This document shows, one piece after another, positions 974 through 45,423 of a stretch of 47,102 nt of DNA. The position numbers and the translations under genes were made by a program. The stretch is taken from positions 1 to 47,102 of the forward strand of contig CANQNG010000017.1 of NCBI GenBank assembly GCA_947625155.1. Reading direction: 5' to 3'. Numbering within the stretch: the first letter of the stretch is position 1; each line of letters begins with the position of its first letter. The notes below the pieces were generated by a model. The model was not told where the DNA came from and made no database searches. It saw nothing but the letters and a program-made list of their open reading frames with translations. The stretch comes from an uncultured Clostridia bacterium. Its GTDB lineage: Bacteria > Bacillota > Clostridia > Oscillospirales > Ruminococcaceae.

Positions 974-1456
974 ATGCAAGCAACAGCAGAATTACAAGAA
1001 ACGGAAGCACAGGAACTCCCGGAAAATATGCGCAAATACTACAACTATCGGGAACAGATGGGGCGGCTGAAAAAGGCGATCAACATGGAATTTTACCTCG
1101 AAGCTGTGTTTATTGAGTATGCTGTCATGGAGGATAGATTAAAATCTGTTCTGGAAAAAGAAGGAATATATGATCCGAGGGAACATAACGGATTGGACGC
1201 TAAGGTTGAGGGAACTCGTAAGCTGATTGGAGACACGGCATGCGCCCTGTACCAGTATATCACACCGAATTTACTTGATGATATTAAGCAGTGGAAAACA
1301 ACAAGAAATAAACTCATTCACGGCTTGATGAATCAGGCAATGACCACAGAAGACTTGAAAGAGTTTGCCTTGCAGGGGCAGGATCTTGCTAAAACACTCA
1401 GCAATAAAGTTACCCTCTACAAGCGTTATCTGGAAAGGCGGGAAACACATGCGTAA
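974..1456 (+). CDS. HEPN-motif protein (possible RNase)
   Basis: A 160-aa, mostly helical, charged protein. Near the C-terminus it has R-N-K-L-I-H (about R111 to H116). This matches the Rx4-6H motif with a polar residue after the arginine that marks catalytic HEPN nucleases of toxin and anti-phage systems. The ATG at 974 is chosen because AAGGGGGA lies just upstream; an earlier in-frame ATG at 902 sits inside the RCC1 gene without a binding site. Its stop overlaps the start of the SPFH gene (1449) by eight bases, so the two are co-translated. HEPN membership rests on one motif and helical character; a non-catalytic AbiV-like or unrelated helical protein is possible. Confidence 0.7.
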   Translation: MQATAELQETEAQELPENMRKYYNYREQMGRLKKAINMEFYLEAVFIEYAVMEDRLKSVLEKEGIYDPREHNGLDAKVEGTRKLIGDTACALYQYITPNLLDDIKQWKTTRNKLIHGLMNQAMTTEDLKEFALQGQDLAKTLSNKVTLYKRYLERRETHA

Positions 1457-3263
1457 ATTTGCGATCGAATGCCCGTCCTGCGGCAAATTTGCAGAAGCAA
1501 GCGAAGGCTTTCTGGCAAGCAGGACGATCCGGTGCAGCTGTGGGAATGTCATTGATGTACGCACGGAAAAATATACATCCTGCATCTGCCCGCACTGCGG
1601 AAATGATGTGGTCTATGATCTTTCCCGTGGGAGAAGAACGGTCTGCCCCGTTTGCCATGAAAGGATCAATGCAGCGGATAACCTCTCCAATATGGTAGAA
1701 TTTCACTGCCCGTCCTGTTCCTGCGGACTTTCAGCGGACAAGAATGCCGCACAGTACACCTGCCCCCTCTGCGACACGGTCATTGATGTGCAGAAGCAGA
1801 CGGCAAAGGAAGCCGAACGCAAAAAAGGGCTTGCGAGTGTCATTAAGTACGAGGGCAACAATCAGACATTTGTCTGGAAGCACCCGATCGAGGATCTCAA
1901 CCTCGGTTCACAGCTGATCGTCCACGAATCACAGGAAGCTATTTTCTTCCGGGACGGTCAGGCACTCGACCTCTTCCCGGCAGGGCGTTACACCCTCAGC
2001 ACGCAGAATCTGCCGGTTTTGCAGGAGCTTTACAAGCTGCCGTCCAATGCGGACACATTCTTCCATTCGGAAGTCTATTTCATCAACAAGACCGTGCAAA
2101 TGGGGATCAAGTGGGGAACGGATTCTAAAGTTCGTTTCTTTGACCCGGCAACCGGGCTGCATTTGGAGATCGGTGCTTGCGGGCAGTTCAACCTGAAAGT
2201 CAGCGACTCCCGCCGTCTGCTCCTGAAATTGGTCGGCACAGCGGAAGAATTTACACAGGCGGATGTCATTGACGGCGGTTATGCCCTGAAACCGACCATT
2301 GCCAAATTCAAGGCACTCATCATGACAAAGGTCAAGAGCCATTTAGCACGTATCATCAAGGAAAACAGCATCAACATTCTGGAGATCGACGAACATCTTG
2401 ACACGATCTCCGAACGCCTGCGGGACACGATCAATGAAAATCTGACGGACTACGGACTTGTCATGCCGGAATTTTTTGTAACGACCATAATGACACCGGA
2501 TGACGACCCGAATTTCAGACGAATGCGGCAGCAGCACGCAGACCTGTTCCTGAAAGTCCGTGAAGAACAGATCCGCAAAGCCGAAGCCGAAGCCAGTGCC
2601 GAACGCCAGACGGTCGAAGCACAGACAGCCGCACGCATGAAGATCATCGGTGCGCAGGGAGAGGCGGAAGCCTATAAACTCCGTGCCGCCGCCGAAGCAG
2701 AGGAAATGCGCATGAAAGGCTACACCTACCAGCAGGAAACCGCACGGCAGGTCGGGCTTGGCGCAGTCGAAAACATGGGCGGTGCAGCAGGCGGACTTGG
2801 CGATATTGCAGGGCTTGGCGTATCGCTTGGTGCGATCGGCGGTGTCATGGGCATGACACGGGAGGCATTGAACCCTGTCCTTGGCAATGCAGCCGGAATG
2901 GGTGCAGCCATGTCCGGCACAGTCTCCCCGGACACATGGGACTGCACTTGTGGAAATAAGGGAATTTCCGGGAATTTCTGCAATAATTGCGGTGCAAAAC
3001 GCCCGGAAAAGCTTGAAACTTGGGACTGCACCTGCGGCAATAGGGGCATTGTCGGGAATTTCTGCAATAACTGCGGTGCCAAACGCCCGGAAAAACCGGA
3101 TACATGGGACTGCACCTGCGGCAATAGGGGCATTGTCGGGAATTTCTGCAATAACTGCGGTGCCAAACGCCCGGAAAAGCCTGAAACATGGGACTGCACC
3201 TGCGGGAATAAAGGCATCAACGGGAATTTCTGCCCGAACTGCGGTAAGAAGAAAGGAGAATGA
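1449..3263 (+). CDS. SPFH-domain protein with N- and C-terminal zinc ribbons
   Basis: A 604-aa protein. Residues 1 to about 125 contain several CxxC pairs (CPSCGKF, CPHCGND, CPVCHER, CPLCDTV). Roughly 140-370 resembles an SPFH/band-7 domain of the YdjI (virion core protein-like) type. It is followed by an alanine/glutamate-rich coiled coil (RKAEAEASAERQTVEAQ, then GEAEAYKLRAAAEAEE), a glycine-rich linker and four nearly identical double-CxxC zinc ribbons. The ATG at 1449 has AAGGCGGG upstream and overlaps the HEPN gene. In Bacillus, YdjI acts with zinc-ribbon and PspA proteins on stressed membranes; a similar scaffold role is inferred. The gene overlaps the following membrane-protein gene region, indicating one transcript. 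Confidence 0.85.
   Translation: MRKFAIECPSCGKFAEASEGFLASRTIRCSCGNVIDVRTEKYTSCICPHCGNDVVYDLSRGRRTVCPVCHERINAADNLSNMVEFHCPSCSCGLSADKNAAQYTCPLCDTVIDVQKQTAKEAERKKGLASVIKYEGNNQTFVWKHPIEDLNLGSQLIVHESQEAIFFRDGQALDLFPAGRYTLSTQNLPVLQELYKLPSNADTFFHSEVYFINKTVQMGIKWGTDSKVRFFDPATGLHLEIGACGQFNLKVSDSRRLLLKLVGTAEEFTQADVIDGGYALKPTIAKFKALIMTKVKSHLARIIKENSINILEIDEHLDTISERLRDTINENLTDYGLVMPEFFVTTIMTPDDDPNFRRMRQQHADLFLKVREEQIRKAEAEASAERQTVEAQTAARMKIIGAQGEAEAYKLRAAAEAEEMRMKGYTYQQETARQVGLGAVENMGGAAGGLGDIAGLGVSLGAIGGVMGMTREALNPVLGNAAGMGAAMSGTVSPDTWDCTCGNKGISGNFCNNCGAKRPEKLETWDCTCGNRGIVGNFCNNCGAKRPEKPDTWDCTCGNRGIVGNFCNNCGAKRPEKPETWDCTCGNKGINGNFCPNCGKKKGE
2934..3260 (+). repeat. 84-bp tandem repeats encoding zinc ribbons
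   Basis: There are four in-frame copies of a 28-residue unit (TWDCTCGN..G..GNFCNNCG.KRPEK): 2934-3017, 3018-3101, 3102-3185 and a shortened last copy 3186-3260. Copies two and three are almost identical in DNA, which suggests recent duplication or homogenisation. Confidence 0.85.
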
Positions 3264-3265
3264 CC

Positions 3266-3964
3266 ATGCAAAAAAGACAGAAACAGCTTCTTGCTATTTT
3301 AGCGATCGTGGCAGTGGTATTTACAGTCGCAGTTTTCCTGATTCCGTTCCCGAAGGGCAGCATTTTCTGGATCGCTTATGCAGCGGAGCTCATCGCACTT
3401 GGCTTGCAAATTCCGTTTTTCAAGGCAGCATTCGACAATGCCGAGGAACTGAAAAGCAAGGTGCTGGGGTTTCCGGTATTCCGGGTAGGGTATCTGTATC
3501 TGGGGATCCAGACGGCGGTATCACTGGCATTATTTGCTTTGGGGTTTGTACCGGGATTTCCGGTATGGCTTGCAGCTTTGGCTTGCCTGTTGGTGTTGGC
3601 AGGCGGGCTGATCTGCGGTATTTCGGCAGATATAGCACATGAGGAGATCGCCAAAGCGGAGACAGTACAGAAGCCGGACACTGCCCTGATGCAATCATTG
3701 CGGACAAGATCGGCAGTACTTGTGAACCGCACAGAAGATGCACAGCTTCGGAAAGCACTGGAGTCCCTTGCGGAGAATTTCCGTTTCAGCGACCCGGTCA
3801 GCAGTCCGATAATCGCAGCACAGGAAGCAGCATTGGAGGAGGCTTTTGACAGTCTGGAAAAATGTATTTCCGACCCGGAAGCCGCAAAGAAGCAGAGAAA
3901 TATCGTTGCACAGCGCCTTGCAGAAAGGAATACCGCTTGCAGCCAGAACAAACATCAAGTTTGA
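3266..3964 (+). CDS. four-helix membrane protein of unknown function
   Basis: A 232-aa protein with four predicted membrane segments: near the N-terminus (LLAILAIVAVVFTVAVFLI), IFWIAYAAELIALGLQI, LGIQTAVSLALFALGFV and WLAALACLLVLAGGLI. A soluble, helical C-terminal half of about 110 residues follows. The second ATG (3266) is preferred: AAAGGAG at 3252-3258 is only one base from the ATG at 3260 but seven from 3266. It follows the SPFH gene almost without a gap and is probably its membrane partner. No family recognised. A strong hairpin follows. Confidence 0.75.
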   Translation: MQKRQKQLLAILAIVAVVFTVAVFLIPFPKGSIFWIAYAAELIALGLQIPFFKAAFDNAEELKSKVLGFPVFRVGYLYLGIQTAVSLALFALGFVPGFPVWLAALACLLVLAGGLICGISADIAHEEIAKAETVQKPDTALMQSLRTRSAVLVNRTEDAQLRKALESLAENFRFSDPVSSPIIAAQEAALEEAFDSLEKCISDPEAAKKQRNIVAQRLAERNTACSQNKHQV

Positions 3965-3990
3965 TAATATCCCCAAATGATATAGTACTG

Positions 3991-4021
3991 ACTGCCCGGC
4001 ATATGCCGGGCAGTCTTGCTT
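3991..4021 (+). terminator. rho-independent terminator
   Basis: A perfect 10-bp stem (ACTGCCCGGC, loop ATAT, GCCGGGCAGT) is followed by CTTGCTTTCT. It closes the HEPN-SPFH-membrane protein operon. Confidence 0.75.
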
Positions 4022-4042
4022 TCTCACCATATAAATGAACCG

Positions 4043-4186
4043 TTATTCTCCCTGTTCTATCCTGTGTTTGCAGGTGCGTATCGAGTTCTGTAAGCCGTAA
4101 AGTTCCGCTCTCAGCTCACGTTCGCTTGTGGAAAACGCATTGATCCAGTCAAGTTTCTCATCCAGTTCTTCGGCAGTTCTCTCCAT
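4043..4186 (-). pseudogene. remnant of a dynamin gene 3' end
   Basis: On the - strand this 47-codon frame ends in a sequence very like the C-terminus of the dynamin gene at 5287-6999: both finish with NSIRTCK(R/H)RIEQGE and a stop. DNA similarity extends over roughly 4036-4180 against 5280-5445. About 21 bases are missing from this copy where the full gene encodes ATCQALD. A short ORF beginning MERTAEEL could still be translated behind GGAG, but it lacks the whole GTPase domain. It is best read as the scar of a duplication around the rpn gene. Confidence 0.7.
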
Positions 4187-4273
4187 AAAACCATCTCCGG
4201 AGTTTCCAACCCGTCTTTCAACGAATCAAAATCTGGTAAAAAATCCGGCAATTCTTTTTTATTTCATTGAAAT

Positions 4274-5155
4274 TCATGTCGTGTCTCCCAATATATCATT
4301 GATTTGTTCATCCGTATATCCTTTTTGCTTCATTTTGGCAACTAATGCAGATCGCTCCTCTGCACGTCCGATGCCGATACCCTCTTCACGTCCGATGCCG
4401 ATACCCTCTGCACGTCCTTCTGCCTTACCTCTCTCATGGCCTCTCGCTTCCCCTCTTGACTCTGCCGCAAACAAAGAAGACCGCATATCGAGCATAGACT
4501 TCTCCCGCCACCTTGCAAGCTCACGGGTCTTGCCGTCCGCACTCATGTCATACACGATCTGAACAGCTCTCTCCATAAGATCACCTCCGGCTTCCTTGAC
4601 TTGTTCCAATGCTTCCTCCGTGTCCGCCTTGATGAATTGCATCCACAGTGTCTTGCGGTCATTCGGCTGAATGTTCTTTACTTTTCCCATTTCAAAGAAA
4701 TGAATGCTGAATTTATCTGAGAATATTTCATGTGTATCTTTCAGTGAAGCAACCACTTCCGTATGATACTGCTCCCGATTTTCAAACAGCGTATAGTCCA
4801 AAATGTTGATTGCAATGGTCTTTTTCAGATTTTGGTACATCTGTCCCTTTTGCAGGCTTGATGTGTACAGCTTTGCCCAGTAAAACAATGTTCTCTCCCG
4901 GAAATCATCCTGTTTGTTGATCTGTATCTCTACATCGACTGCCTTGCCATCCACATCCAAAACAAGATCCAATCTGCTGAATTTTCCCTCCTCTGTCTCA
5001 GGCGGCATTTCGGGATTGCGGATCTCAATTTTTCTGATAGAATCAGATGGTATTTCCAGAATATCAGATATAAACGCATGAAGCATATCCTCATGCTCAG
5101 TAAAAAACTTCTTGAAGATCACATCGATCTTCACGCTGACAATTTCCCGGCTCAT
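4274..5155 (-). CDS. Rpn-family PD-(D/E)XK nuclease / putative transposase
   Basis: A 293-aa protein of the Rpn/PDDEXK_2 family. The nuclease core is visible as SRLDLVLDVDGK followed by DVEIQI (the D...ExQ active-site pattern). Next come the family's conserved ERTLFYWAKLY region and the typical low-complexity tail with repeated GR/GE dipeptides (EGIGIGREEGIGIGRAEE), ending in YTDEQINDIL. The ATG at 5155 is preferred over 5164 because the AGAGG upstream is too close to the latter. It has its own promoter. Known members promote recombination and DNA cleavage and often sit alone as mobile cargo. Here it lies between the full dynamin gene and a copy of that gene's 3' end. Confidence 0.85.
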   Translation of the reverse strand: MSREIVSVKIDVIFKKFFTEHEDMLHAFISDILEIPSDSIRKIEIRNPEMPPETEEGKFSRLDLVLDVDGKAVDVEIQINKQDDFRERTLFYWAKLYTSSLQKGQMYQNLKKTIAINILDYTLFENREQYHTEVVASLKDTHEIFSDKFSIHFFEMGKVKNIQPNDRKTLWMQFIKADTEEALEQVKEAGGDLMERAVQIVYDMSADGKTRELARWREKSMLDMRSSLFAAESRGEARGHERGKAEGRAEGIGIGREEGIGIGRAEERSALVAKMKQKGYTDEQINDILGDTT

Positions 5156-5178
5156 CAGTCTCACATCCTCTCACTTAT

Positions 5179-5207
5179 AGTATAGCATAAAACGCAGGAA
5201 AATGCAA
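5179..5207 (-). promoter_or_regulatory. promoter of the rpn gene
   Basis: On the - strand, TTGCAT (5202-5207), a 17-base spacer and TATACT (5179-5184) lie about 25 bases upstream of the start codon. Confidence 0.65.
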
Positions 5208-5286
5208 GAGGAAATTTGAGATTTATAGCTTTACACGCCCTCAGATGCCTTTTGATCACTATCATATTTACCATACTGGAGAACCG

Positions 5287-6999
5287 TTATTCCCCCTGTT
5301 CTATCCTGCGTTTGCAGGTGCGTATCGAGTTCTGTAAGCTGGAAAGTTCCGTTCTCAGTTCACGTTCGCTCGTGGAGAGCGCATCGATCCGGTCAAGTTC
5401 CTCATCCAGTGCCTGACAGGTCGCTTCCATTTCTTCGGCAGCTTCCTCTACCTGACGGCGGAAATAGCTTTCTGTTTCCTCCCCCATCCCCCGGAATGAG
5501 AGCTTGACGGCTTCTTTCTGCCTGTTTAATTTCTTCTCGTTCAGCGATTCTGTGAACATTCCCACAAGTTCCGTGACAGTAGCAGCTCCGGCAAGCACGG
5601 GACCTACCCATTGGCTCATTTCAGCAATACGCTTGCTGATCTTCAATGCCTCAAACGGCTTGAAACGATGCCCCAGCTTGTTGCCGATCGTTTTCACCAT
5701 CTTGTGCAGATCAGTGCCTTTCACTGTCCAGATCGTGACATCTTCGCCTTTGGAAACATTGGCAATCTGCAAGAAATAGTCCTCTATTTTGGGTAAAGCC
5801 GTTTCCGTTGCCGCATCGATCCCCTGTTTCATATGGGAGAGCAGCGGTGCGGCTTTGTTCGTTCCGGCAGTAATGGGCTGCTCCAGTCTCCGCTTTTCTT
5901 CCGTGAAGAAATGCTCCGCCAGTTCCGAGTGTATGACACGCTGTGCCTCTGCATCTGCTTCTGCGGCATAGTGTTCAAAGTTCTCCTGTATCATACGGCA
6001 AAGATCTTCCTGTATCGGCTCGTAAAATTGCTGATACTCCTTGTCCGTGAAAGTATAGCCCTTCTCCCCAAGGCGGGCTGCGACCTCATCGCCCTTTTCC
6101 CGGAAGCACAGGCATTGCTGTTCGATCTCGCTGATGCAGCTTTTCCGGAATTGCCCTATTTTCTCTGCGACCGCATTGCGTACACGGCGGATAAGGGCTT
6201 TCCCCTCTTTCCGGTGCGCATCGTCCTCTGTTTCATCCAGCATTTCCTCAACAGAACGACCAAGCAGTGCGACCGGTGTCAGCAGCTTTCCGGACAAGCC
6301 TTTCTGCGCACAAAAACGGTTCAGCGCCGCAATGAATCCGGTAAAATGGCTGTCCTCAATGAATTCTTCGTCCTGTGTCGTTTTTCCCTCTATGTAATCA
6401 TAGGCATCCACAAAATAGTGATGAAATTCTGCCAGAGAATATTCAGGTGCGAGTGTTTTGTTGATGGAGAGGGAATAGTGCTCCACAAGTTCCTCGTATG
6501 CACCGTTCTCGGCATTCATTTTATTGATGACAAGAAACAGCTTCTGCTGATAGTCAGCGGCAAGTGCCTTGAAATCGTCCCTTGTCACTTCCCGGAACAG
6601 ATCGCTCGTAATGCAGTATACCAGCAGATCCGCTTTCCGGATCGCCTCTGCTGTTTTTTCGTCATGTGTTTTGTTTTCATTGGTATTCAGCCCCGGTGTA
6701 TCCCAGAGCAAAATATTGCTGTTCCATGGATAGCACATGACTTCGGAAGTCGAAATATCCGAATCTGTCACAATATCCGCATTGCCTGTCAGGGCTTTCA
6801 GTATTGTGGATTTGCCCGCTGAATATTGCCCGACAAAGGCTATGCTGATCTTTGCGTTCAGATCGGGTGACTGATAGGCAGCCTGTAAATTCCGGCAGGC
6901 ATCCGTTTTTCCATAACGTTCATAGAGCCTGCACAATGCCTGATAGAGTTCCTCGATCTCCTTGCTGTATGCACCGATCTTCAAATCGCTTTCTGCCAT
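5287..6999 (-). CDS. dynamin-like GTPase (second of pair)
   Basis: A 570-aa protein with a complete dynamin-type G domain: P-loop GQYSAGKST (about 57-65), a G2 threonine in the following loop, G3 WDTPG (99-103) and G4 NKMN (159-162). The rest is long and helical, ending in a coiled coil (TSERELRTELSSLQNSIR). A hydrophobic stretch near residues 465-490 (MSQWVGPVLAGAATVTELVG) could insert into membrane. Bacterial dynamins bind, tether or fuse membranes with GTP hydrolysis, and paired dynamins often form hetero-oligomers. It starts 18 bases after the first dynamin gene in the same operon. Its 3' end is duplicated on the far side of the rpn gene. Confidence 0.85.
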   Translation of the reverse strand: MAESDLKIGAYSKEIEELYQALCRLYERYGKTDACRNLQAAYQSPDLNAKISIAFVGQYSAGKSTILKALTGNADIVTDSDISTSEVMCYPWNSNILLWDTPGLNTNENKTHDEKTAEAIRKADLLVYCITSDLFREVTRDDFKALAADYQQKLFLVINKMNAENGAYEELVEHYSLSINKTLAPEYSLAEFHHYFVDAYDYIEGKTTQDEEFIEDSHFTGFIAALNRFCAQKGLSGKLLTPVALLGRSVEEMLDETEDDAHRKEGKALIRRVRNAVAEKIGQFRKSCISEIEQQCLCFREKGDEVAARLGEKGYTFTDKEYQQFYEPIQEDLCRMIQENFEHYAAEADAEAQRVIHSELAEHFFTEEKRRLEQPITAGTNKAAPLLSHMKQGIDAATETALPKIEDYFLQIANVSKGEDVTIWTVKGTDLHKMVKTIGNKLGHRFKPFEALKISKRIAEMSQWVGPVLAGAATVTELVGMFTESLNEKKLNRQKEAVKLSFRGMGEETESYFRRQVEEAAEEMEATCQALDEELDRIDALSTSERELRTELSSLQNSIRTCKRRIEQGE

Positions 7000-7017
7000 A
7001 CGTATTCTCTCCTTTTT

Positions 7018-8961
7018 TCAATTTGCCTCCACCGTCACCATTTCCCCAGTCACACGGCGGAGTTTTTCCGTATCAAATTCTTTTCCATGCCGTGTCCGTA
7101 TCCGGAACAGGTGCTCATCCCGGCTGCGTTCTGCGCTGAGAATATCACTCGCTGTAAATTTGTCTGCATCCGTGCAGATATATTCCAACACCCGCACGGC
7201 ATAGCAGGTATCCAGTTTCCGAAGACTTTTCGCAAGCAGTTCCTGATTCTGCCGGATATAGTGCAGTACCTTGTCGATCTGCTCCAGCAATGCCTTGAAA
7301 AACTGCTCGATGACCGCCCTGTCCTGTCCTGTCGTGCGGGCAAGGTCTTTCATGATGCTGTCCGTGACACGCTTTTGCTGCCAGTCGGTGAGCTTCCGGA
7401 AATTTTCATTGGTCAGCATTTTGGCATTTTGTATCTGCTTTGCTTTCGGCTTCAGAAAATCTGTCAGAAAGCCAAGCGGTATATCAATGATCGCAATTGC
7501 CGGCATCCAAATGACTACGACATTCAATGCTGCACAGACCAGCTTGCACACGCCCCTTAATGGAATGATGCGGCGGGGTCTTCGTAAGAAATCAGCCGTT
7601 TCCTGTTCTGTGGCTTCGGAAAGATTGATCACCGCAAACTCGATCTCTTCCCCGATCTCCTGCGTTTTTTGACGGACATATGTTCTGTATTCTTCCACGC
7701 AGTCTTTGATCTGTTCCTGCAAAGCGGTCAGCACACCGGCTTCTTTGAAACAGTTCTCAAAATTTGTCTGGAGACGGAACGGACTTTGAACACGGTAATT
7801 TTCTTCTATATATGCACTGCGTTGTTTCACATAAAATTCCCGGAACTGATTGACGATCTGTTGTTGGCTATGATGTATGACCTCATTTTGCCGACTTTCG
7901 AGCGTGCCTGTAATGCGTTCCTGCAGGTTTGCTACCTTTTCCCGGAACATTGTCAGCAATTCGGTATCTTTCTCCAGTGCCTGCAAAGCCTTGTGCAGCT
8001 GTACAGACGGCTCGTCCAGCATGGTCTGTGATTTGAACAACAGGCAGTTCTTTTCGAGCATCGCACCGATCTGCGCAACAAAGGCAGGGTAATCAGAGGC
8101 TTCCACAAAATCAGGTCTATTTTCATGCTTTCCTTTCCATGCAGCGAGCAGAAATACCGGAATGACTGTCATGATCTCACGATAGCCCTTTTCAGCAGCA
8201 TGGTGTTCCAACCGATCCGTCCAGCCGGATAAACGCTGTTCGTCTGTCCTTTCTTTCCAGAGAGCCGGAGCTGCTTCAAAACGTTTCAGGTGAGAACCAT
8301 TGCTGATATTGTCCTTATGGTTGAGCAGAACGATCATAGGTCTGTGGTATTCAGCAATGCGGTCCAGAACGGTAAAAACTTCCTCTGTGATCGTATCATC
8401 CGCCACGACAAAGCAGATCATATCCGCCTGCGAGATCACCCGCATGGCAATTTCCGTGTCCTTTGCGCCGTCTGCTTCACCAGCCCCGATCCCGGGCGTG
8501 TCTATGATCTTCAGACCTTTCCATGAGAATACACGGTTGAACCGTGTCGTACGTTGTGAGCCTTTCCCGATAAAAAGATCTCCCTCTCCGCACATAATGG
8601 CATGGAGCGTGGATTTCCCTGCTTTTGTCCTGCCCATCAGAGCCAGCGAAAAGCCATGACTTGCCAGTTCTTTCTGTGCCATAGCAGATGAGAGCTGTTC
8701 GAGCGTTTCCCACACCTGTATCCGGTAAGCGGTCTGAAATGTCAGGAGTAAATTTTTAAGCTCCGAATTGGAGATGTCCCCCATACCGGAAAGCCGTTTC
8801 TGTAATACCGACCCCTCACTTTTGAGCCGTTTAAGGATGTCTTGCAGATCTCCCAGATCCGATGCTGCCACACGGCTGATCTGCCCAAGGTCAAGGTGCA
8901 GCTCTTTCTCCTCGGCGGAAAATAATGTACTTTGCTGCCGCTGCAGTTCTTCCAGAGCCAT
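7018..8961 (-). CDS. dynamin-like GTPase (first of pair)
   Basis: A 647-aa protein. The G domain begins after a roughly 100-residue helical N-terminus: GRTKAGKST (110-118), DTPGIGAG (154-161) and NHKD (214-217). A helical stalk follows. About residues 478-510 contain a strongly hydrophobic paddle-like segment (VCKLVCAALNVVVIWMPAIA), consistent with membrane insertion. It differs clearly from the second dynamin, so the pair is not a recent duplication. AGGAG within the end of the preceding small gene sets the start. The two GTPases and the 114-aa protein appear to form one operon. Confidence 0.85.
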   Translation of the reverse strand: MALEELQRQQSTLFSAEEKELHLDLGQISRVAASDLGDLQDILKRLKSEGSVLQKRLSGMGDISNSELKNLLLTFQTAYRIQVWETLEQLSSAMAQKELASHGFSLALMGRTKAGKSTLHAIMCGEGDLFIGKGSQRTTRFNRVFSWKGLKIIDTPGIGAGEADGAKDTEIAMRVISQADMICFVVADDTITEEVFTVLDRIAEYHRPMIVLLNHKDNISNGSHLKRFEAAPALWKERTDEQRLSGWTDRLEHHAAEKGYREIMTVIPVFLLAAWKGKHENRPDFVEASDYPAFVAQIGAMLEKNCLLFKSQTMLDEPSVQLHKALQALEKDTELLTMFREKVANLQERITGTLESRQNEVIHHSQQQIVNQFREFYVKQRSAYIEENYRVQSPFRLQTNFENCFKEAGVLTALQEQIKDCVEEYRTYVRQKTQEIGEEIEFAVINLSEATEQETADFLRRPRRIIPLRGVCKLVCAALNVVVIWMPAIAIIDIPLGFLTDFLKPKAKQIQNAKMLTNENFRKLTDWQQKRVTDSIMKDLARTTGQDRAVIEQFFKALLEQIDKVLHYIRQNQELLAKSLRKLDTCYAVRVLEYICTDADKFTASDILSAERSRDEHLFRIRTRHGKEFDTEKLRRVTGEMVTVEAN

Positions 8962-8967
8962 GCGCTC

Positions 8968-9312
8968 CTACTCTGCCGGCATATCTGCAAAACGTCCAAG
9001 CGTCCGGAGCAGATCCTGTTCAGCAGAACTGAGGACTGTCGGTTCAAGGCTTTCCTCGTCCAGAACAGCAAGCTGCCAGCACATCCGATAGATCCAGTTT
9101 CTGTTCCCCTCTGTTTCCGCCTGATATGTCTGTAGTGCTTCCGGGAGCGTGACACTCTTCTCTGCATCATTGAGTACATCGTAAATGATCTCCCGGTATG
9201 CAGCAAGTGCATCCGAGGAAAGCAGATGTTCGATCCACCGTATCTGTCTGGAGTGCATTTCTTCCTGCAGCACCGTCATATGCCCAAGAAGTGAAAATGC
9301 CTCGCCTGCCAT
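8968..9312 (-). CDS. small protein leading the dynamin operon, unknown
   Basis: A 114-aa, helical, acidic protein with no recognised domain or membrane segment. It carries EEMHSRQIRWIEHLLS early and WIYRMCWQLAVLDEES in the middle. The ATG at 9312 is chosen because AAAGGAGGAACCCAT directly precedes it; the upstream ATG at 9360 has no binding site and lies in the promoter. It is the first gene after the operon promoter, six bases ahead of the first dynamin, so it is probably an accessory factor for the GTPase pair. No function can be assigned from sequence. Confidence 0.75.
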   Translation of the reverse strand: MAGEAFSLLGHMTVLQEEMHSRQIRWIEHLLSSDALAAYREIIYDVLNDAEKSVTLPEALQTYQAETEGNRNWIYRMCWQLAVLDEESLEPTVLSSAEQDLLRTLGRFADMPAE

Positions 9313-9400: not shown

Positions 9401-9874
9401 TCACGCAAAATAGGACCTTACATGACAGCCCGCTGCTTTTTCTACATACCCGCAGAATGCAGACACTTCCGCATATCCGCTGTGAAACATTTTCCCGTCC
9501 AGATAGGAAACAGAATTCACAACGATATGCATATGATACAAAGAATTTTCCCTTTCCTTTTCATGCAGACACCAGATCACCTGATAGGCATCCTTGAAAT
9601 ACGCTGCAATACAGATGCTCAGTGTGACTGCTTTTACCGGGTCATTTACGCTTTTATCATAGGAAATAATAAAATGGATCAACGGATCTCCGCTGACCTT
9701 ATGGAAATATTTCCGCACACACAGCATCTGGTGGCAAGTATGTTCAAGATGCTGCGCATCCACGCCATATCCTCCGATCTGTAAAGCCCTTTCCCCATTT
9801 TCCAGATACCGGCAAGCGTTGCACAAGTACGAAACACCTCCGTCCGTGCGCCGTATTACTTTAACAGCGACCAT
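9401..9874 (-). CDS. short relaxase (MobA-like)
   Basis: A 157-aa protein matching the N-terminal catalytic core of MobA/relaxase-type nucleases, which nick oriT and carry the strand into the recipient. Visible motifs are an N-terminal MVAVKVI strand, a candidate tyrosine near residue 16 or 23, IHFIISYD with H67, and the metal-binding YHMHIVVNSV (H114, H116, N120). The usual long C-terminal region is absent. The closing motif KAAGCHVRSYF with a stop suggests a natural minimal relaxase rather than random truncation, but truncation cannot be excluded. The start overlaps the end of mobC by 19 bases with AGGCGG upstream, so the pair is coupled. Confidence 0.75.
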   Translation of the reverse strand: MVAVKVIRRTDGGVSYLCNACRYLENGERALQIGGYGVDAQHLEHTCHQMLCVRKYFHKVSGDPLIHFIISYDKSVNDPVKAVTLSICIAAYFKDAYQVIWCLHEKERENSLYHMHIVVNSVSYLDGKMFHSGYAEVSAFCGYVEKAAGCHVRSYFA

Positions 9875-10134
9875 AGTGCATCCGCCTCGCTTTCCAATGC
9901 GGCTGATCGTTCCGTTGCATATTCCCGAACCAATGTACAGGCAGTATTCACTACATTCTGTATCTTTACCATTTGCGCAGGTGTAAGTCCCTTTTTTCCG
10001 TGCATTGCCTGTGAAAGAATAAAACTGCTCATAGTTTGCTTTTCTTTTTTGGCTTGTTTCTGAATGGCTGCATATTGTTTTTCAGACATTCTGAGCGAAG
10101 TGACCTTGGTTCTCTTTTCCGCTGTATCTCTCAT
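9856..10134 (-). CDS. MobC-like relaxosome protein
   Basis: A 92-aa protein. The N-terminus (TKVTSLRMSEKQYAAIQKQA) has the ribbon-helix-helix pattern of MobC/relaxosome accessory proteins, and the C-terminal half is helical. Proteins of this kind bind oriT and help load the relaxase. GGAGATGG precedes the ATG. It overlaps the relaxase gene, which confirms a mobilization module. oriT would be expected in the upstream 230 bases. Confidence 0.75.
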   Translation of the reverse strand: MRDTAEKRTKVTSLRMSEKQYAAIQKQAKKEKQTMSSFILSQAMHGKKGLTPAQMVKIQNVVNTACTLVREYATERSAALESEADALWSLLK

Positions 10135-10705: not shown

Positions 10706-11809
10706 ATGAACAAGATCGTATGCTCACATTGTAGTGCCGTCATTGAAGATCACGACTACTATGAGATCAGCGGGCAGATCATCTGTGGTGACTGCCGTGA
10801 CAATTACACTGTTACCTGCGACTGCTGCGATTCGCTGATCTGGGATCCCGATAATTGCAGTGACGATGAAGACATCTGTCTTTGCGGAAACTGCTATGAA
10901 CGGTATTACACCCATTGTTACAGATGCGGACGGATCGTTGAAATTGACAGAACCAGTCTTTACGACAGTGATGCCTATTGCAATGATCGTTATCAACAGA
11001 TCATGGAAGACAGTGCGATCCATGAATATGGTTACAAACCGAAGCCGAAATTCTTCGGCAAGTACGGTGAGACTTCTGACCGCTATTTCGGTGTGGAACT
11101 GGAGATCGATGATGCAGGTCAGGACAGGGACAACGCACAGGAGCTGCTTGACATTGCCAATGTATCTGAAGAACATATCTACATTAAATCAGATGGTAGT
11201 CTGGAAAATGGTATGGAAATTGTAACGCATCCCATGACGCTGGCGTATCATGAAACCCAATTTGATCGGGGTGCCATATTACATAAAGCACTTTCCCTTG
11301 GCTATCGTTCACACCAGTCAGGTACTTGCGGGCTGCATATCCATGTCAACCGGAAAAGCCTTGGCAGTTCCGAACAGGAACAGGATGAGATCATTTCAAG
11401 AATCCTGTATTTCGTAGAGCATCACTGGAATGAAATGATGCGTTTCAGCCGCCGTTCGGAATCTGCTATGAACCGCTGGGCAGCCCGATACGGGTACGAA
11501 GCGACGCCCAAAAAGATTCTGGACAAAGCGAAAAACAGCTATGCCCGCTATTGTGCCGTGAACCTTACCCCAAGAGAAACTGTAGAATTTCGTTTGTTCC
11601 GTGGCACGCTCCGGCTGAATACGCTGCTTGCTACCCTGCAACTTGTCGATCACATCTGCTGTCTCGCCTGTGAGCTGACAGACAAGGAATTGCAGGAACT
11701 CTCTTGGTCGGAATTTGTTTCTGAAATTTCAGAACCGGAATTGATCCAGTACCTGAAAGAACGCAGACTTTACATCAACAATGCTATTGAAAGTGAGGAG
11801 GAAATATAA
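10706..11809 (+). CDS. amidoligase family protein with zinc-binding N-terminus
   Basis: A 367-aa protein. The first 100 residues hold many CxxC pairs (CSHCSA, CGDCRD, CDCCDS, CGNCYE, CYRCGR), forming LIM/treble-clef-like zinc domains. The rest matches the Amidoligase_2 family of the COOH-NH2 ligase superfamily: FGVELEID, KSDGSLENGMEIVTHPMT, CGLHIHVNR and TVEFRLFRGTL give the conserved E, D, H and R residues of the ATP-dependent active site. The family is predicted to form amide bonds on peptides or amino acids. Its partner downstream is a class II glutamine amidotransferase. GAGGAGG precedes the ATG; the stop overlaps the next ATG as TAATG. Confidence 0.85.
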   Translation: MNKIVCSHCSAVIEDHDYYEISGQIICGDCRDNYTVTCDCCDSLIWDPDNCSDDEDICLCGNCYERYYTHCYRCGRIVEIDRTSLYDSDAYCNDRYQQIMEDSAIHEYGYKPKPKFFGKYGETSDRYFGVELEIDDAGQDRDNAQELLDIANVSEEHIYIKSDGSLENGMEIVTHPMTLAYHETQFDRGAILHKALSLGYRSHQSGTCGLHIHVNRKSLGSSEQEQDEIISRILYFVEHHWNEMMRFSRRSESAMNRWAARYGYEATPKKILDKAKNSYARYCAVNLTPRETVEFRLFRGTLRLNTLLATLQLVDHICCLACELTDKELQELSWSEFVSEISEPELIQYLKERRLYINNAIESEEEI

Positions 11810-12024
11810 TGCGGGTTGTATCCATCATTCTTCGGATGTTCCGTCAGATCTCATGGAAAGAGATCCAGCTTTTCTGCCAGACGATCATCAATTTGTTTTC
11901 GATCATTCAGTGCAAAGGCAAATTTCTGAGGTTATTTCAGAAAATCAACGCTCTCTATGTGTTTCTGCTTTTGCTGAGTCATGTCACCATACGTTTCGGA
12001 ATGCAAAAGGGGGTAGTTCTATAA
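11809..12024 (+). CDS. small ORF between amidoligase and amidotransferase, frame uncertain
   Basis: A 71-codon frame starts at an ATG with an ideal AGGAGG (spacing eight) and ends TAATG at the start of the amidotransferase. Its translation is hydrophobic/basic and not recognised. The -1 frame over the same bases also has no stop, shows more G-first codons and gives a balanced sequence (HHSSDVPSDLMERDPAFLPD), running straight into the downstream gene. So either this frame is real, or a one-base change near the start has moved a small gene out of phase. Confidence 0.4.
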   Translation: MRVVSIILRMFRQISWKEIQLFCQTIINLFSIIQCKGKFLRLFQKINALYVFLLLLSHVTIRFGMQKGVVL

Positions 12025-13004
12025 TGTGTTCACTGTTCGGGTATCTTGATCACAAAGGAAAAATCGGAAGTAAAGCCCTGCAGCGACTGGTACAGAAACT
12101 TGCCGACGCTGCGGAGGAACGTGGTACAGATGCTACGGGAATTGCCTATTTTCAGCATGAAAAGCTGCATATTTACAAACGCCCCAAGCCAGCTCATAAG
12201 ATGCGTTTTCACATCCCTTCCAGTGTACGTACAGTCATGGGACACACTCGTTTCGCTACACAGGGGAGTGAAAAACAGAACTGGAACAATCATCCCTTTG
12301 CAGGAAAAGCCAGCGGAGATGACTTTGCGCTTGCACATAATGGGATACTCTACAATGACAAGACGTTGCGCAGATCGCAGCATCTTCCGGAAACCAAGAT
12401 CGAAACTGACTCCTACATAGCTGTGCAGCTGTTGGAACACTACGGCAGCATCACACCGGAAACCATGCAGAAAATGGCAGAAACCGTTCAGGGCAGTTTT
12501 GTGTTTACAATACTGGATAAACAACAGACACTGCACATCATCAAGGGAAGCAACCCATTGCATATTTACCACTTTGAAAGATCCGGATTGTATGTATATG
12601 CCTCTACGGAATCGATCCTGAAAGCTGCACTTTCCGAAACAATCCTGAAAAAAGCAGTCTACACGGAGATCCCGTTTCATGAAGGTGAGATCCTTTCCAT
12701 CGACTGTAACGGAAATATCACCCGGAATACATTTGTACCCGAGCCATTCATCACAGGAAACAAATGGCTTCCGCAGAGTGCATGGTATGATGACTATTTA
12801 TATGAGGAGGAACTGTTGCTGGATAATTGCAAATACTATGGCGTGAGTGAAGGTGCAGTGACAACTCTGCTGGCATATGGCTATACACCAACGGAAGTGG
12901 AAGATATGCTGATGGACACAACCTCACTGGAGCGGTCACTCCGGCAGGTAATGTACTCTGACGAGGCACCTCCACGAAAGGAGGAATTCTATGCGCAGGG
13001 GTAA
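12024..13004 (+). CDS. class II glutamine amidotransferase
   Basis: A 326-aa Ntn-hydrolase. The start is fixed by the catalytic cysteine directly after Met (MCSLFGYLD), which must become the free N-terminus. Further family signs are RGTDATGIAYF, VMGHTRFATQGS, NNHPFAG, ALAHNGILYND and ETDSYIAVQLLE. It resembles GATase_6/PurF-like glutaminase domains, releasing ammonia from glutamine. No synthase domain is fused: the last 100 residues are acidic and unassigned, so ammonia is probably passed to the amidoligase encoded two genes upstream, or the two enzymes modify the same product. AAAGGGGG precedes the ATG. The 3' end overlaps the integrase start by 14 bases. Confidence 0.85.
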   Translation: MCSLFGYLDHKGKIGSKALQRLVQKLADAAEERGTDATGIAYFQHEKLHIYKRPKPAHKMRFHIPSSVRTVMGHTRFATQGSEKQNWNNHPFAGKASGDDFALAHNGILYNDKTLRRSQHLPETKIETDSYIAVQLLEHYGSITPETMQKMAETVQGSFVFTILDKQQTLHIIKGSNPLHIYHFERSGLYVYASTESILKAALSETILKKAVYTEIPFHEGEILSIDCNGNITRNTFVPEPFITGNKWLPQSAWYDDYLYEEELLLDNCKYYGVSEGAVTTLLAYGYTPTEVEDMLMDTTSLERSLRQVMYSDEAPPRKEEFYAQG

Positions 13005-14231: not shown

Positions 14232-15977
14232 TCACTTTGTTTCTATCTGGTGAAACTCCAGAACGATCTTTTTCCTCATCAGATCCTCCTTAAGCAGTCT
14301 TTTCATTTCATAACTCAACTGATCATATACAAATTGTTCTGGCTGTTCTGCTCTGTCAGGATCAATCGTTTCATTTTTTAGAACATTGACAGCTCTCTGA
14401 AGCCATTCCATCGCCTCGATCCCTTTTTTCGCTTTATTTACGAAAATCTCGACTTCAGTGATACTCATGTATTCCTTAAAAATGCACACCAGTTTTTTAT
14501 GATTCTGATGGATCATCCTTGCAAACGTTGAAATTGCCTTCTCCAGATCTGCATATATTCCTGCGATCAGTCCAATATTTTCCATATTATCTTCATTTTC
14601 AAAAATGTGAAACACAAGCATCATTTTCTTGTAGTATTTCTGTAGACTGGATCTCGGAATATAAAAAAGATCCAGTTCCTTTCTCATTTCTTTTTCACGT
14701 TCAGGTTTTACAGGAGCATTATCCTTACTATCCCGCTCAGAACTGAAAAGTTCCTTCATATTCCAAAACAGCTCCAGATCCAGATAGTTTATTTCTCTTC
14801 CAAGTGCTTTTTTTAACAAGTCTGCCAGCCGTAAGTCACGTTCCTTTTCAGACAGCGTATCCAGTTCACTCAACACCGGATCATTCAGCAAGGCTTCCGC
14901 TTCCTCCGGACTAAGTGCCTGCTGTTTAGCCTCATGCAGCAAGTCATGATAAGCACTTGTGAGTTTATCCAAAACATCTTCTATAGAACCGATCACAGAG
15001 AACACGAACTGCCGCAGTTCATCTTGATGATCAGCCTTTATAATAGCTTCACATTCTTTTGCACGATCTTTGAATGTTTTACTGAACCGGTAATTGGCAG
15101 TATCATTGATATGTGTTAATTTTTTTGATCTTGTTATGTAATAAATATATTTCTGTACATATATATTCCTGACTTCTATAGTGGATATAGGTATCTGTTC
15201 CATTTTTTCAGTCTTATGATCCAATTCTTCATCCAGAAAAGGTTTTTCTCCCACGTCTTCCTGCAATGGGTACTTTAGAAGTTTACATCCTGACTCTTTG
15301 TTCTTGGCTCTTGTTCTTTTTTTCGACTTTATGATCTCTACACAAGGTATTTTCCATTGAAAGATGGGAATCATGAGATCCTCCTCTGTGTTGATCGGGA
15401 GCGCACGGCAAGAAGCGTAAGGATATGATAACGTCTCATCCATGATCTGTGTAACATCTTTCTTTTTCATTTTCCCTTTGTTGATAAAATCAATGTAGTC
15501 CCTGAGCAGTGCTTCTGCCTGTGAGAGTTCCCATTTGTACTCTAATTCAATATCATCGTTTCCAGAATTTGCATCTCGGAAAACTACCCGGTTTGTGTAA
15601 ATAGCAAGTATCACACACTGCATTACCTGATACAAGATCTCCGGAAACCGTTTACTCCACTGGACCTGTAACTGCATCAGCATCTCTACACCGTTCGGTG
15701 ACATTCTTTTCTTCAGATATTCTATACAGTTTTCTATGACTACCTCTCTACTCAGATTCGGGAATCTGTTATATTTCAGCTCGCTGTTGCACAGGGATTC
15801 TCTGAGCAGAATTTCACATTGTTTTTTTTCGCATGGTATGAACCTGTATTTTGCCATTTTGTTTTTGGTCTTAGACAATTTTTTGCAACCTTCCGAGTTG
15901 GAATTAGTCACCCCGATACAGATCTCATAGTATATGTCTGTCAGCATATCATCGAGTGCATCTTTTCTTGATAACAT
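14232..15977 (-). CDS. unknown 581-aa AT-rich cargo protein
   Basis: No family recognised. The protein is lysine/glutamate-rich and largely helical, with no signal peptide or membrane segment. It contains an internal basic segment (KSKKRTRAKNKE), a helical block ending LLNDPVLSELDTLSEKERDL, and a C-terminal helical region. The ATG at 15977 is preferred because AGAAAGGAAG directly precedes it; the earlier ATG at 16007 lies in the leader hairpin. Its base composition is clearly more AT-rich than its neighbours. It stands alone between the two integrase modules and is best seen as horizontally acquired cargo. Defence or regulatory function is possible but nothing in the sequence shows it. Confidence 0.7.
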   Translation of the reverse strand: MLSRKDALDDMLTDIYYEICIGVTNSNSEGCKKLSKTKNKMAKYRFIPCEKKQCEILLRESLCNSELKYNRFPNLSREVVIENCIEYLKKRMSPNGVEMLMQLQVQWSKRFPEILYQVMQCVILAIYTNRVVFRDANSGNDDIELEYKWELSQAEALLRDYIDFINKGKMKKKDVTQIMDETLSYPYASCRALPINTEEDLMIPIFQWKIPCVEIIKSKKRTRAKNKESGCKLLKYPLQEDVGEKPFLDEELDHKTEKMEQIPISTIEVRNIYVQKYIYYITRSKKLTHINDTANYRFSKTFKDRAKECEAIIKADHQDELRQFVFSVIGSIEDVLDKLTSAYHDLLHEAKQQALSPEEAEALLNDPVLSELDTLSEKERDLRLADLLKKALGREINYLDLELFWNMKELFSSERDSKDNAPVKPEREKEMRKELDLFYIPRSSLQKYYKKMMLVFHIFENEDNMENIGLIAGIYADLEKAISTFARMIHQNHKKLVCIFKEYMSITEVEIFVNKAKKGIEAMEWLQRAVNVLKNETIDPDRAEQPEQFVYDQLSYEMKRLLKEDLMRKKIVLEFHQIETK

Positions 15978-16006
15978 AGTGATCTTCCTTTCTGATACAG
16001 TCTTCA

Positions 16007-16046
16007 TTTTTTTGGAGAAAACCTAAAGGCATTTTCTCCAAAAAAA
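16007..16046 (-). promoter_or_regulatory. perfect 15-bp hairpin in leader of unknown gene
   Basis: TTTTTTTGGAGAAAA (16007-16021) and its exact complement (16032-16046) are separated by ten bases. It lies about 30 bases upstream of the start at 15977. The A/T-rich outer arms make it terminator-like, so it may act as an attenuator or separate the two elements. Confidence 0.5.
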
Positions 16047-18718: not shown

Positions 18719-18875
18719 GTGATCTCACTACATATCCCCGGTAATAACATTTGGTACAAGATCCCGGACTGTCACTACAGAAAAACGGGAGCAGATGGAT
18801 ACAAGTATTTTGCAGATCTGATGAAGCGTGAAGTACATCTGTTCTCACCGATACGATTTGGAAGGAGAGATCTGT

Positions 18876-19223
18876 ATGAAAAAACAAAACAACACAAAGA
18901 CAATTCAGCTTCGTATTTCCGAAGCGGAAAAAGAGAGGATCACAAAGTATGCAGCACAGGCAAATACTTCTTGCAGCGAGTATATCCGGACCTGCTGTCT
19001 CTCGGATGAGAAAGTTATCTTCCTTACTGAGGGAGCCGATATAGCCAAAAACTTTGCAGAACTGAATGCAATTCTATATCAATGCAAGTACCGCCATTGC
19101 ATGGAAGAAGAAACGGCAGAAAAGCTGACCGCAGACATGGAGCAGATCACAGAGCTGCTCCTGAAAGTATTGGAAAAATGCACCAGCATCCACAGTGAGG
19201 AGGACGAATATGTCAATTGTTAA
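18876..19223 (+). CDS. MobC-like relaxosome protein (element 2)
   Basis: A 115-aa protein starting KKQNNTKTIQLRISEAEKER, a ribbon-helix-helix beginning, followed by AAQANTSCSEYIRTCCL and a helical C-terminal half typical of MobC. GAAGGAGAGA precedes the ATG. It overlaps the relaxase start by 14 bases. The 157-base gap upstream (18719-18875) contains CCCCGGTAATAAC and GATCCCGG and is the expected place for oriT, though no nick site was identified. Confidence 0.75.
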   Translation: MKKQNNTKTIQLRISEAEKERITKYAAQANTSCSEYIRTCCLSDEKVIFLTEGADIAKNFAELNAILYQCKYRHCMEEETAEKLTADMEQITELLLKVLEKCTSIHSEEDEYVNC

Positions 19224-20341
19224 ATTCACAAGCACAAACGATCGCTGTCTATCAGCAGCAGATGTTCCGCTGCATTACAGCTCCCGTCAAAACAGAAGGC
19301 TGCATCGGGGCAAATACCTGTTCTCCTGAAAAAGCACTGCCTTGTATGCAGATCGTAAAAAAGCTCTATCACAAAATCGGAGGACGGGATACCATACAGC
19401 TCATCCTGTCTCCCACGCCGGATACAAAGGAAAGAGCCGACCAAGTTTATATGGAACTTGGTGAAGAAATTGCAGCGTTGTTCCAAGATTTCCAATGCTA
19501 TTACGCACTGCATAAGGACAGCCGGTTCCGGCATCTGCACATGGTATTCAACACGGTCAATTTCCGAACCGGAGCCAAATTTTCCCAGAACCGAAGCGAC
19601 CTCAACCGTTTCCGCTGTAAGGTGAATACTATTTTTACCCAAATGGGATCTGCACCCATGGAACAAAGTGCCAACAGCCTATGGGATGAAACGTCATACC
19701 CCATGACCGGATCATTTGATTTTCTGGAAATAGCAGAAGAAAACGGGCTTGGCATTTTCAACCAGTTACATTCTCCACAGCAGGGAAATACCGGAAAGTC
19801 CTACGGGAGTAAAGAATTTTCACTTTACAAGCGACCGATCAACGCATATCTTCCGTTGAGAAACATGAGGTACGGTGTGCAGGAGATCCCGGAAACAGAC
19901 GATACCACACCGTTTCCACCCTTGCCGGGTATCCGCTATGGATACCAGTTTACATCACAGCAACCGGAGATCTATGATCCAAATTATCAGAAAGGGGAAT
20001 TATCCATGAAACAGTATGAAAATCAAGTGCCAGCACCTGTACAGGAGTATCTCGAAACACCTGTCTTTCAAAACGATTATCCATGCATGATGATCGATGC
20101 AGGCAGTCATCTGGATCTGCATATTGACCGCCCGGAGCAAGTACTGCCTGTCATGGATCCAATCAGACGATCAACCGCACAGCAGATGTATAGCGCTGCG
20201 GAGGCTAGACTGGCAATGTTTCACAAAGTACGTGAGACCAACTGCAATGCCAATATCTACATCGACATTTCTCCCAAAATTGACATTTACTTTTCCGGAG
20301 AGAGCAGCTCCCTGCTTGATAACAGAAACCACGAAGAATAA
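19210..20341 (+). CDS. MobA-like relaxase (element 2), frameshift near start
   Basis: The true start is ATG 19210: AGGAGG is seven bases upstream and the first residues (MSIVKFTSTNDRC) are those expected of this relaxase family. That frame stops at 19327. The conserved body (VKKLYHKIGGRDTIQLILSP, then SRFRHLHMVFNTVNF with the histidine metal site) is in the +1 frame, open from a TTG at 19217 to 20341. A one-base indel between about 19240 and 19327 must separate them. The catalytic part of 374 codons is otherwise intact, and its C-terminal half is proline-rich and variable. As written, the gene is probably non-functional unless the indel is a sequencing error. Confidence 0.75.
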
Positions 20342-20539: not shown

Positions 20540-20613
<74 letters not shown>

Positions 20614-45234: not shown

Positions 45235-45308
45235 TCGACAGCGGCATAACTCTAGCTATCGTTCCGCTGTGAAACAGTTGTGTTTGCAGCAGCGTTTAGC
45301 CTAAATAC

Positions 45309-45407
45309 CCTTATCAAGAGAGGCTGAGGAACAGGTCCTGTGAAGCCCGGCAACCTGGCAGAAATTGCTGATGGTGCTAAATCCTGCGGTATTACCGAGA
45401 GATGAGG
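45309..45407 (+). ncRNA. SAM-I (S-box) riboswitch aptamer
   Basis: The S-box core is plain: TTATCAAGAGAGGCTGAGGA, GAAGCCCGGCAACCTGGCAG, and the closing CGAGAGATGAGG. P1 is formed by CCTTATC (45309-45315) and GATGAGG (45401-45407). AAGAGAGG and the kink-turn are conserved. Bound S-adenosylmethionine would favour the downstream terminator and lower metK expression. Confidence 0.95.
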
Positions 45408-45423
45408 AATTTTCAGTTCATTC

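Follow-up and report, generated by a model that had tools for sequence, protein, structure and literature searches.

Two convergent operons at the start of a Ruminococcaceae contig

We analyzed a 47,102-nt stretch of DNA, here called the window, that constitutes the entire contig CANQNG010000017.1 of an uncultured Clostridia bacterium of the family Ruminococcaceae (assembly GCA_947625155.1; 1.96 Mb in 38 contigs, 86.5% complete). An initial annotation, made from the sequence alone, had described six genes in two convergent operons at 974 to 9312 and proposed that together they form a single system of membrane surveillance or defense. The gene arrangement holds, with all six reading frames open. 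On the plus strand lie genes for a HEPN-like protein of 160 amino acids (aa; 974 to 1456), an SPFH protein of 604 aa (1449 to 3263), and a membrane protein of 234 aa with three or four helices, here called TM3 (3260 to 3964), each overlapping the next at its end. On the minus strand, the gene for a 114-aa protein (8968 to 9312) is followed after a 6-base gap by a LeoBC-type dynamin-like GTPase of 647 aa (7018 to 8961) and, after a further 18 bases, by a LeoA-type dynamin-like GTPase of 570 aa (5287 to 6999).

This inventory was incomplete. Upstream of the HEPN-like gene, the plus strand encodes RCC1 repeats (about 124 to 960), and a strong hairpin at about 3990 to 4020 (-27.2 kcal/mol, z -7.5) is a probable terminator between the convergent operons. 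On the minus strand next to it are a remnant from the 3' end of a further LeoA copy (about 4026 to 4219), which includes a 141-nt repeat 88% identical to 5270 to 5410 and matches LeoA residues 514 to 570 at 65%, and a gene for a 296-aa Rpn-type PD-(D/E)XK nuclease or putative transposase (4274 to 5164; PDDEXK_2, 2e-49; TIGR01784, 8e-36).

The SPFH gene and its membrane partner often accompany TIR genes

The assignment of the 604-aa protein to the SPFH family was borne out by a match to Pfam Band_7_1 (E = 7.9e-39). By eye, the protein has cysteine-rich ribbons at its N terminus and four zinc-ribbon-like repeats at its C terminus, and its gene contains 84-bp repeats at 2928 to 3245. Its neighbor TM3 had been described as a four-helix protein; three strong helices are evident from hydropathy, and the fourth is likely by eye only.

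To describe the company that this SPFH gene keeps, we searched samples of the family (148 genomes) and of the order (394 genomes), in which 48 places matched at E ≤ 1e-50 (in one of the searches, at most three candidates were scored per genome). With two places left out (G517:C3 and G091:C49), the sample comprises 46 loci, the window included; the fetched flanks of many of them end at contig ends. Neighbors were scored by tblastn at 1e-6, using five TM3 queries for the membrane protein, and an iterated TIR profile, which drifted onto zinc ribbons, was set aside. A TM3 homolog is present at 36 of the 46 loci and a TIR gene at 27, a lower bound given that one further contig (L113) ends within the start of an uncounted TIR-type gene. 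Dynamins appear at two loci (the window and genome G135), and the window's HEPN family and its 114-aa protein at one each. At the 27 TIR loci the genes share one strand and are ordered TIR-SPFH-TM3 or SPFH-TM3-TIR, or have a TIR gene at both ends; TM3 was not seen at four of them (L095, L097, L120, and L122). Two loci, L051 and L090, contain broken frames. In a phylogenetic tree of the SPFH proteins, the window falls within a set of ten (support 83/98, below the tool's strong mark), all of them TIR-first if the window is counted through its RCC1 remnant; G135 is its sister (96/67), and another TIR-first locus, L094, lies elsewhere.

Plasmid matches to the SPFH protein came from 22 records, the best at 40% (Butyrivibrio, L127) and lacking a TIR gene in its annotation, and phage records yielded three matches, all partial or weak. 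One IMG/VR contig classed as viral (L084, 9992 to 15034) has the order SPFH-TM3-HEPN-like-TIR, with gene lengths equal to those of locus L103.

Window RCC1 repeats match the C terminus of a TIR protein

The RCC1 repeats at the start of the window are 64% identical to residues 575 to 876 of the 881-aa TIR/RCC1 protein of G135 and appear to represent the C-terminal region of a TIR/TPR/RCC1 protein. The alignment becomes convincing at about base 124; farther upstream, an in-frame stop lies at 67 to 69. When the G135 protein was compared with plasmids, the best place in each of 18 records covered the RCC1 part only.

The TIR proteins of the window's relatives have a recurring architecture. Of the 34 open reading frames (ORFs), 32 were scanned with Pfam, two fragments being omitted; TIR_2 was found in 31 and TPR_14 in 26, and the C-terminal domains included RCC1_2 in nine, DUF6273 in eight, and LRR_5 in one. 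A body of zinc ribbon, TPR, and TIR domains is shared by proteins of seven loci (L053, L088, L095, L101, L104, L117, and L120) that differ in their C-terminal domains, and several loci have two such genes. The motif W-x3-E, where TIR NADases have their catalytic glutamate, is kept in 32 of the 34 ORFs of the relatives. These proteins are often predicted to span the membrane: a hydrophobic helix follows the TIR domain in 22 of the 34 ORFs and none such in the other 12. In 17 of the 34, the helix is single and at least 200 residues come after it; in every one of these, the flank toward the TIR domain is the more positive, so that the TIR domain is predicted to be inside and the remainder outside.

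Ligand binding by DUF6273 is hinted at by the finding that, in phages, the variable regions of diversity-generating targets lie in this domain (PMC11792537, from the part of that source available). In the fetched flanks of 21 TIR genes, no clear A-biased repeat pair indicative of a diversity-generating retroelement was found, and the search returned a single weak motif match, at a locus without a TIR gene (L108).

Several known proteins invite comparison. The Dictyostelium protein TirE likewise combines TIR with RCC1 repeats in one chain (PMC13142454); it is eukaryotic, however, and has two diverged TIR domains, and no SPFH partner is mentioned in the available part of that source. Thoeris, SpbK, and other TIR antiphage systems share the W-x3-E TIR domain with the window's relatives but differ in that the partners here are an SPFH scaffold and a membrane protein. 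The Thoeris ThcB4 model of NCBIfam gave 27.9 bits, below its cutoff of 220, with the one TIR protein compared with that library (from L101).

The HEPN-like gene may occupy an accessory effector slot

Situated between the RCC1 repeats and the SPFH gene, the 160-aa protein is likely an accessory effector. Its designation as HEPN in the initial annotation stands in part. The R-N-x3-H motif (RNKLIH, residues 111 to 116) is present in all eight aligned rows, the window and seven relatives, yet the Pfam HEPN models remain under their cutoffs (PF05168, 14.1 versus 22 bits; PF18735, 13.7 versus 28.4 bits). A PDB sequence search with the HEPN profile gave rows at chance level only. Among the 50 rows listed by VIA-align for the predicted structure, BAR, IKK/TBK1, and designed helical bundles appeared but HEPN proteins did not, a result that proves nothing. 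Three viral-contig matches to the HEPN sequence were ignored, as they spanned just 18 residues. Genes of this family adjoin repeat proteins that are BspA-like by eye at four loci (L139, L140, L143, and L144), and in genome G167 a fragment of the family adjoins an RCC1 protein.

Other genes take up comparable positions elsewhere. Between TIR and SPFH we found a SIR2_2 protein (L101; also PADLOC PDC-S25, 2.7e-6), a 404-aa protein (L092) that is SIR2-like by eye but gains no support from Pfam, and an uncharacterized 245-aa protein (L091). A Trypsin_2 protein lies between SPFH and TIR in L095. The slot between TM3 and TIR holds a DUF4365 protein in L102 (also PADLOC Aga_REase, 3.2e-9), a pEK499_p136-type HEPN-like protein slightly under the Pfam cutoff in L103, and an uncharacterized protein in L116.

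The minus-strand operon resembles Eleos

Judged by sequence, the operon on the minus strand encodes a dynamin pair of the Eleos type, LeoBC followed by LeoA. The initial annotation had recognized two unlike dynamin GTPases; PADLOC places the pairing within the known LeoBC/LeoA type (LeoBC, 2.5e-52; LeoA, 1.5e-79). The matches cover most of each protein and model, running from protein residues 38 to 582 and model positions 24 to 566 of 601 for LeoBC and from residues 9 to 567 and positions 11 to 555 of 559 for LeoA. The G1 and G3 motifs are kept in both proteins (GQYSAGKS/DTPG and GRTKAGKS/DTPG). Millman et al. in 2022 reportedly found that Eleos defends against phages. The available text of a 2026 review attributes membrane-stabilizing dynamins to that study (PMC12926258), and Eleos is counted as a defense system elsewhere (PMC10482375, likewise in part). 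The tandem order matches that of enterotoxigenic Escherichia coli, leoC-leoB-leoA, as given in the accessible portion of PMC4159319; the window differs from Eleos/LeoABC in having a separate 114-aa companion and in the low score of its LeoA against an NCBIfam model, given below.

Relatives of LeoBC were scarce in the data searched. At E = 1e-20, LeoBC relatives were found in one of the 148 family genomes, the window's own, and at 1e-15 in two of 398 genomes of the phylum, again counting the window's own; a search of genome contigs gave one locus (L039). Nine plasmid records contained LeoBC relatives, all at <60% identity. No relatives of either protein were found in viral contigs, nor of LeoBC in phage records, and the sole match in a PDB sequence search with LeoA was the GTPase Der. 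Within the order, the LeoBC model matched nine of 394 genomes, including that of the window. Seven of the other eight were inspected (G239 was left out), and none was accepted as a Leo pair; three were other dynamins and four were GTPases of about 400 to 420 aa, HydF-like by eye.

A 114-aa candidate companion of LeoBC

We take the 114-aa protein to be a subunit of LeoBC; it may be a diverged TerB-like domain. At L039, a 775-aa LeoBC protein begins with a homolog of it (31% identity over 102 residues, E = 6e-22). In a Pseudanabaena plasmid, the corresponding front position of LeoBC is occupied by a Pfam TerB domain (1e-11); one Klebsiella LeoBC is without such a front part. Pfam TerB had no match in the window's 114-aa protein, and hhalign against the Pseudanabaena TerB domain gave a probability of 1.0% over 26 columns (control, 0.1%), too weak to establish kinship. 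PDB sequence searches gave chance-level rows alone for the 114-aa profile and no match for the Pseudanabaena TerB domain. The predicted structure of the 114-aa protein was too poor and was set aside (predicted local distance difference test score, 45). No relatives of the protein were found in plasmids. In genome G552, the protein encoded ahead of the Leo pair was considered as a TerB candidate and rejected, as it corresponds to PF10112. The fusion at L039 offers Eleos-type dynamins a candidate extra subunit in the 114-aa protein.

Probably two neighboring modules rather than one system

We consider the locus to consist of two adjacent immune modules, both linked to the membrane and inherited separately, in a region of mobile DNA, with a probability of roughly two in three. 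On our best reading of the sequences, the first would be a TIR-SPFH-TM3 immune operon with a plug-in effector, its start cut by the contig end, and the second an Eleos-type dynamin pair with the 114-aa companion. Two modules are indicated rather than one system because no dynamin was seen in the fetched flanks of 44 of the 46 SPFH loci, and because none of the four other Leo-type loci (L039, with about 1 kb of contig beyond LeoA, L126, L128, and L146) contains homologs of SPFH, TIR, TM3, or the window's HEPN. The claim that all six genes make up one system thus lacks support as the main reading: in this sample, the two operons mostly occur independently. The defense reading, in turn, was strengthened by the PADLOC matches to LeoA and LeoBC and by the frequent association of the SPFH/TM3 pair with TIR proteins, and the locus presumably serves in defense.

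Several observations weigh against this interpretation. No TIR gene was seen in the fetched flanks of 19 of the 46 SPFH loci, the window among them, so that SPFH-TM3 keeps other company too. The TIR half of the window's RCC1 protein was found neither in the contig nor elsewhere in the assembly; with this half missing and a stop codon ahead of the RCC1 repeats, the first module may be broken here. The HEPN, SPFH, TM3, and 114-aa proteins of the window have no PADLOC row, and the best PADLOC row for four TIR proteins was PDC-S66 at 1e-4. The window's HEPN family was beside SPFH at none of eight other loci (two on contigs of just 3.9 and 7.0 kb), and an intact extra gene lies between core genes in only 7 of the 27 TIR loci, a count that omits L051 and L090, where most of the additional pieces are parts of disrupted core genes. 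Finally, LeoA scored 67.8 bits against NCBIfam LeoA/HP0731 (NF041922; cutoff, 325), which marks the Leo pair as diverged.

It is improbable that the SPFH/TM3/HEPN genes and the dynamins act jointly, as one composite system of membrane surveillance and killing. In favor of such a system stands the sister locus in G135 (L050), whose SPFH protein is 80% identical to that of the window and whose operon faces, tail to tail, an operon of three dynamins, the second of which matches the LeoA model at 1e-22. Dynamin_N genes are scarce, being found in 4 of 43 SPFH genomes, and by a hand estimate the closeness in G135 would arise by chance about 1 time in 20 (five dynamin clusters, each with a chance of about 1 in 100 of falling within 10 kb of an SPFH gene), with the clusters undercounted because PF00350 at the limit used misses the Leo pair. 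In the window, moreover, the remnant of another LeoA copy adjoins TM3. Against this stand the 44 SPFH loci without a dynamin in the fetched flanks, which include the next-nearest relative (L051, from G027, on a 9.5-kb contig), as well as the four Leo-type loci without SPFH; the G135 dynamins, too, are only distantly similar to the pair in the window (27% over 81 aa in the best blastp alignment). The G135 locus may reflect a weak link between dynamins and the SPFH operon, and clustering of defense genes in one island is a simpler account of their closeness. At 188 to 7149 of L050, the three dynamin-like GTPases stand in a row, flanked by uncharacterized proteins of 186 and 174 aa.

We also find it quite unlikely that the first module is a membrane-stress device like Bacillus subtilis YdjI/PspA, in which SPFH and TM3 would guard the membrane with no part in immunity. 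Like the operon here, pspA-ydjGHI pairs an SPFH/Band_7_1 protein with a membrane-protein partner (PMC8581546, as far as that source is available), and the 19 SPFH loci with no TIR would suit this account. The initial annotation had raised the related alternative that the plus-strand genes always accompany a pspA-type operon. However, PspA was found in 4 of 30 genomes and never on the SPFH contig, the window genome's own copy lying on a different contig; 27 of the 46 loci have a TIR protein instead, and this company, together with a changing set of SIR2, HEPN-like, and nuclease-like genes, suggests a role in conflict.

That the island is decayed and little of it works, the first module having lost its TIR gene and the Rpn gene and duplicated LeoA tail being scars, is very unlikely: the missing TIR half, the stop at 67 to 69, the LeoA-tail remnant, and a short relaxase at 9401 to 9874 speak for decay, but the HEPN, SPFH, TM3, GTPase, and 114-aa genes are all open and tightly spaced with motifs kept, and the TIR gene may simply begin beyond the contig end.

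Mobile surroundings and other features of the contig

The initial annotation had placed the locus beside mobile elements, and its surroundings agree. The guanine-plus-cytosine (G+C) content per kb ranges from 0.38 to 0.54 over the first 21 kb and from 0.485 to 0.604 over the remainder, exceeding 0.53 in 22 of 26 windows there. The G+C-poorer first 21 kb contains two tyrosine integrases and two relaxase/NikA pairs (9401 to 10134, with the short relaxase of 157 aa, and 18828 to 20341), perhaps two stacked mobilizable elements. A tRNA-Met gene at 20540 to 20613 marks the boundary of this region; an attachment repeat, sought as a copy of the 3' end of the tRNA gene, was not found at ≥12 bases in direct orientation. 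Also within the mobile region, an amidoligase gene (PF12224) adjoins a class II glutamine amidotransferase gene (10706 to 13004), and between the two integrases a 591-aa protein with no Pfam match at 1e-3 is encoded on the minus strand in DNA of low G+C content (14232 to 16007; 0.38 to 0.41). An S-adenosylmethionine (SAM) riboswitch (RF00162, E = 1.3e-19) lies at 45308 to 45408.

Proposed mechanism and implications

Family membership suggests roles for the individual proteins: TIR as an NAD-using or signal-making enzyme, HEPN as an RNase, SPFH as a scaffold, TM3 as its anchor, and the dynamins as membrane remodelers. The role of TM3 is proposed by comparison with YdjG and YdjH, which anchor YdjI according to the available part of PMC8581546. 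In the TIR-SPFH-TM3 operon, SPFH and TM3 would gather the TIR protein on the membrane, where a signal read by its C-terminal domain, or a disturbance of the membrane, would activate TIR. The activated TIR domain might then consume NAD or make a signal, an accessory effector, here the HEPN protein, could add RNA cleavage, and growth would halt before phage release. LeoBC and LeoA may for their part assemble jointly on the membrane during infection.

More speculatively, and with rather low confidence, these parts might form a bacterial counterpart of a Toll-like receptor assembly, in which a membrane-spanning protein with an exchangeable outer RCC1, DUF6273, or LRR domain and an inner TIR domain, held in an SPFH raft with a dedicated membrane protein, passes an alarm to plug-in effectors (HEPN, SIR2-like, nuclease, or protease) and in some cases to dynamins nearby. 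The parallel with animal Toll-like receptors is one of resemblance only: it consists in the 17 of 34 TIR ORFs whose single helix precedes at least 200 predicted outer residues and in the LRR_5 domain of 1 of 32 proteins. The chain order is reversed, and the TIR proteins of the relatives have additional TPR and zinc-ribbon domains; their topology is predicted, and no homology of the outer parts is claimed.

The TIR-SPFH-TM3 gene set is apparently undescribed. No SPFH-TIR defense operon was among the literature matches listed, which scarcely cover the subscription literature and so are weak evidence of novelty. If the reading is correct, a conserved operon would unite SPFH membrane scaffolds and TIR immune signaling, which are usually separate themes. 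It would provide a testable bacterial setting for membrane microdomains that switch on TIR enzymes, together with gene slots in which new effectors could be found.

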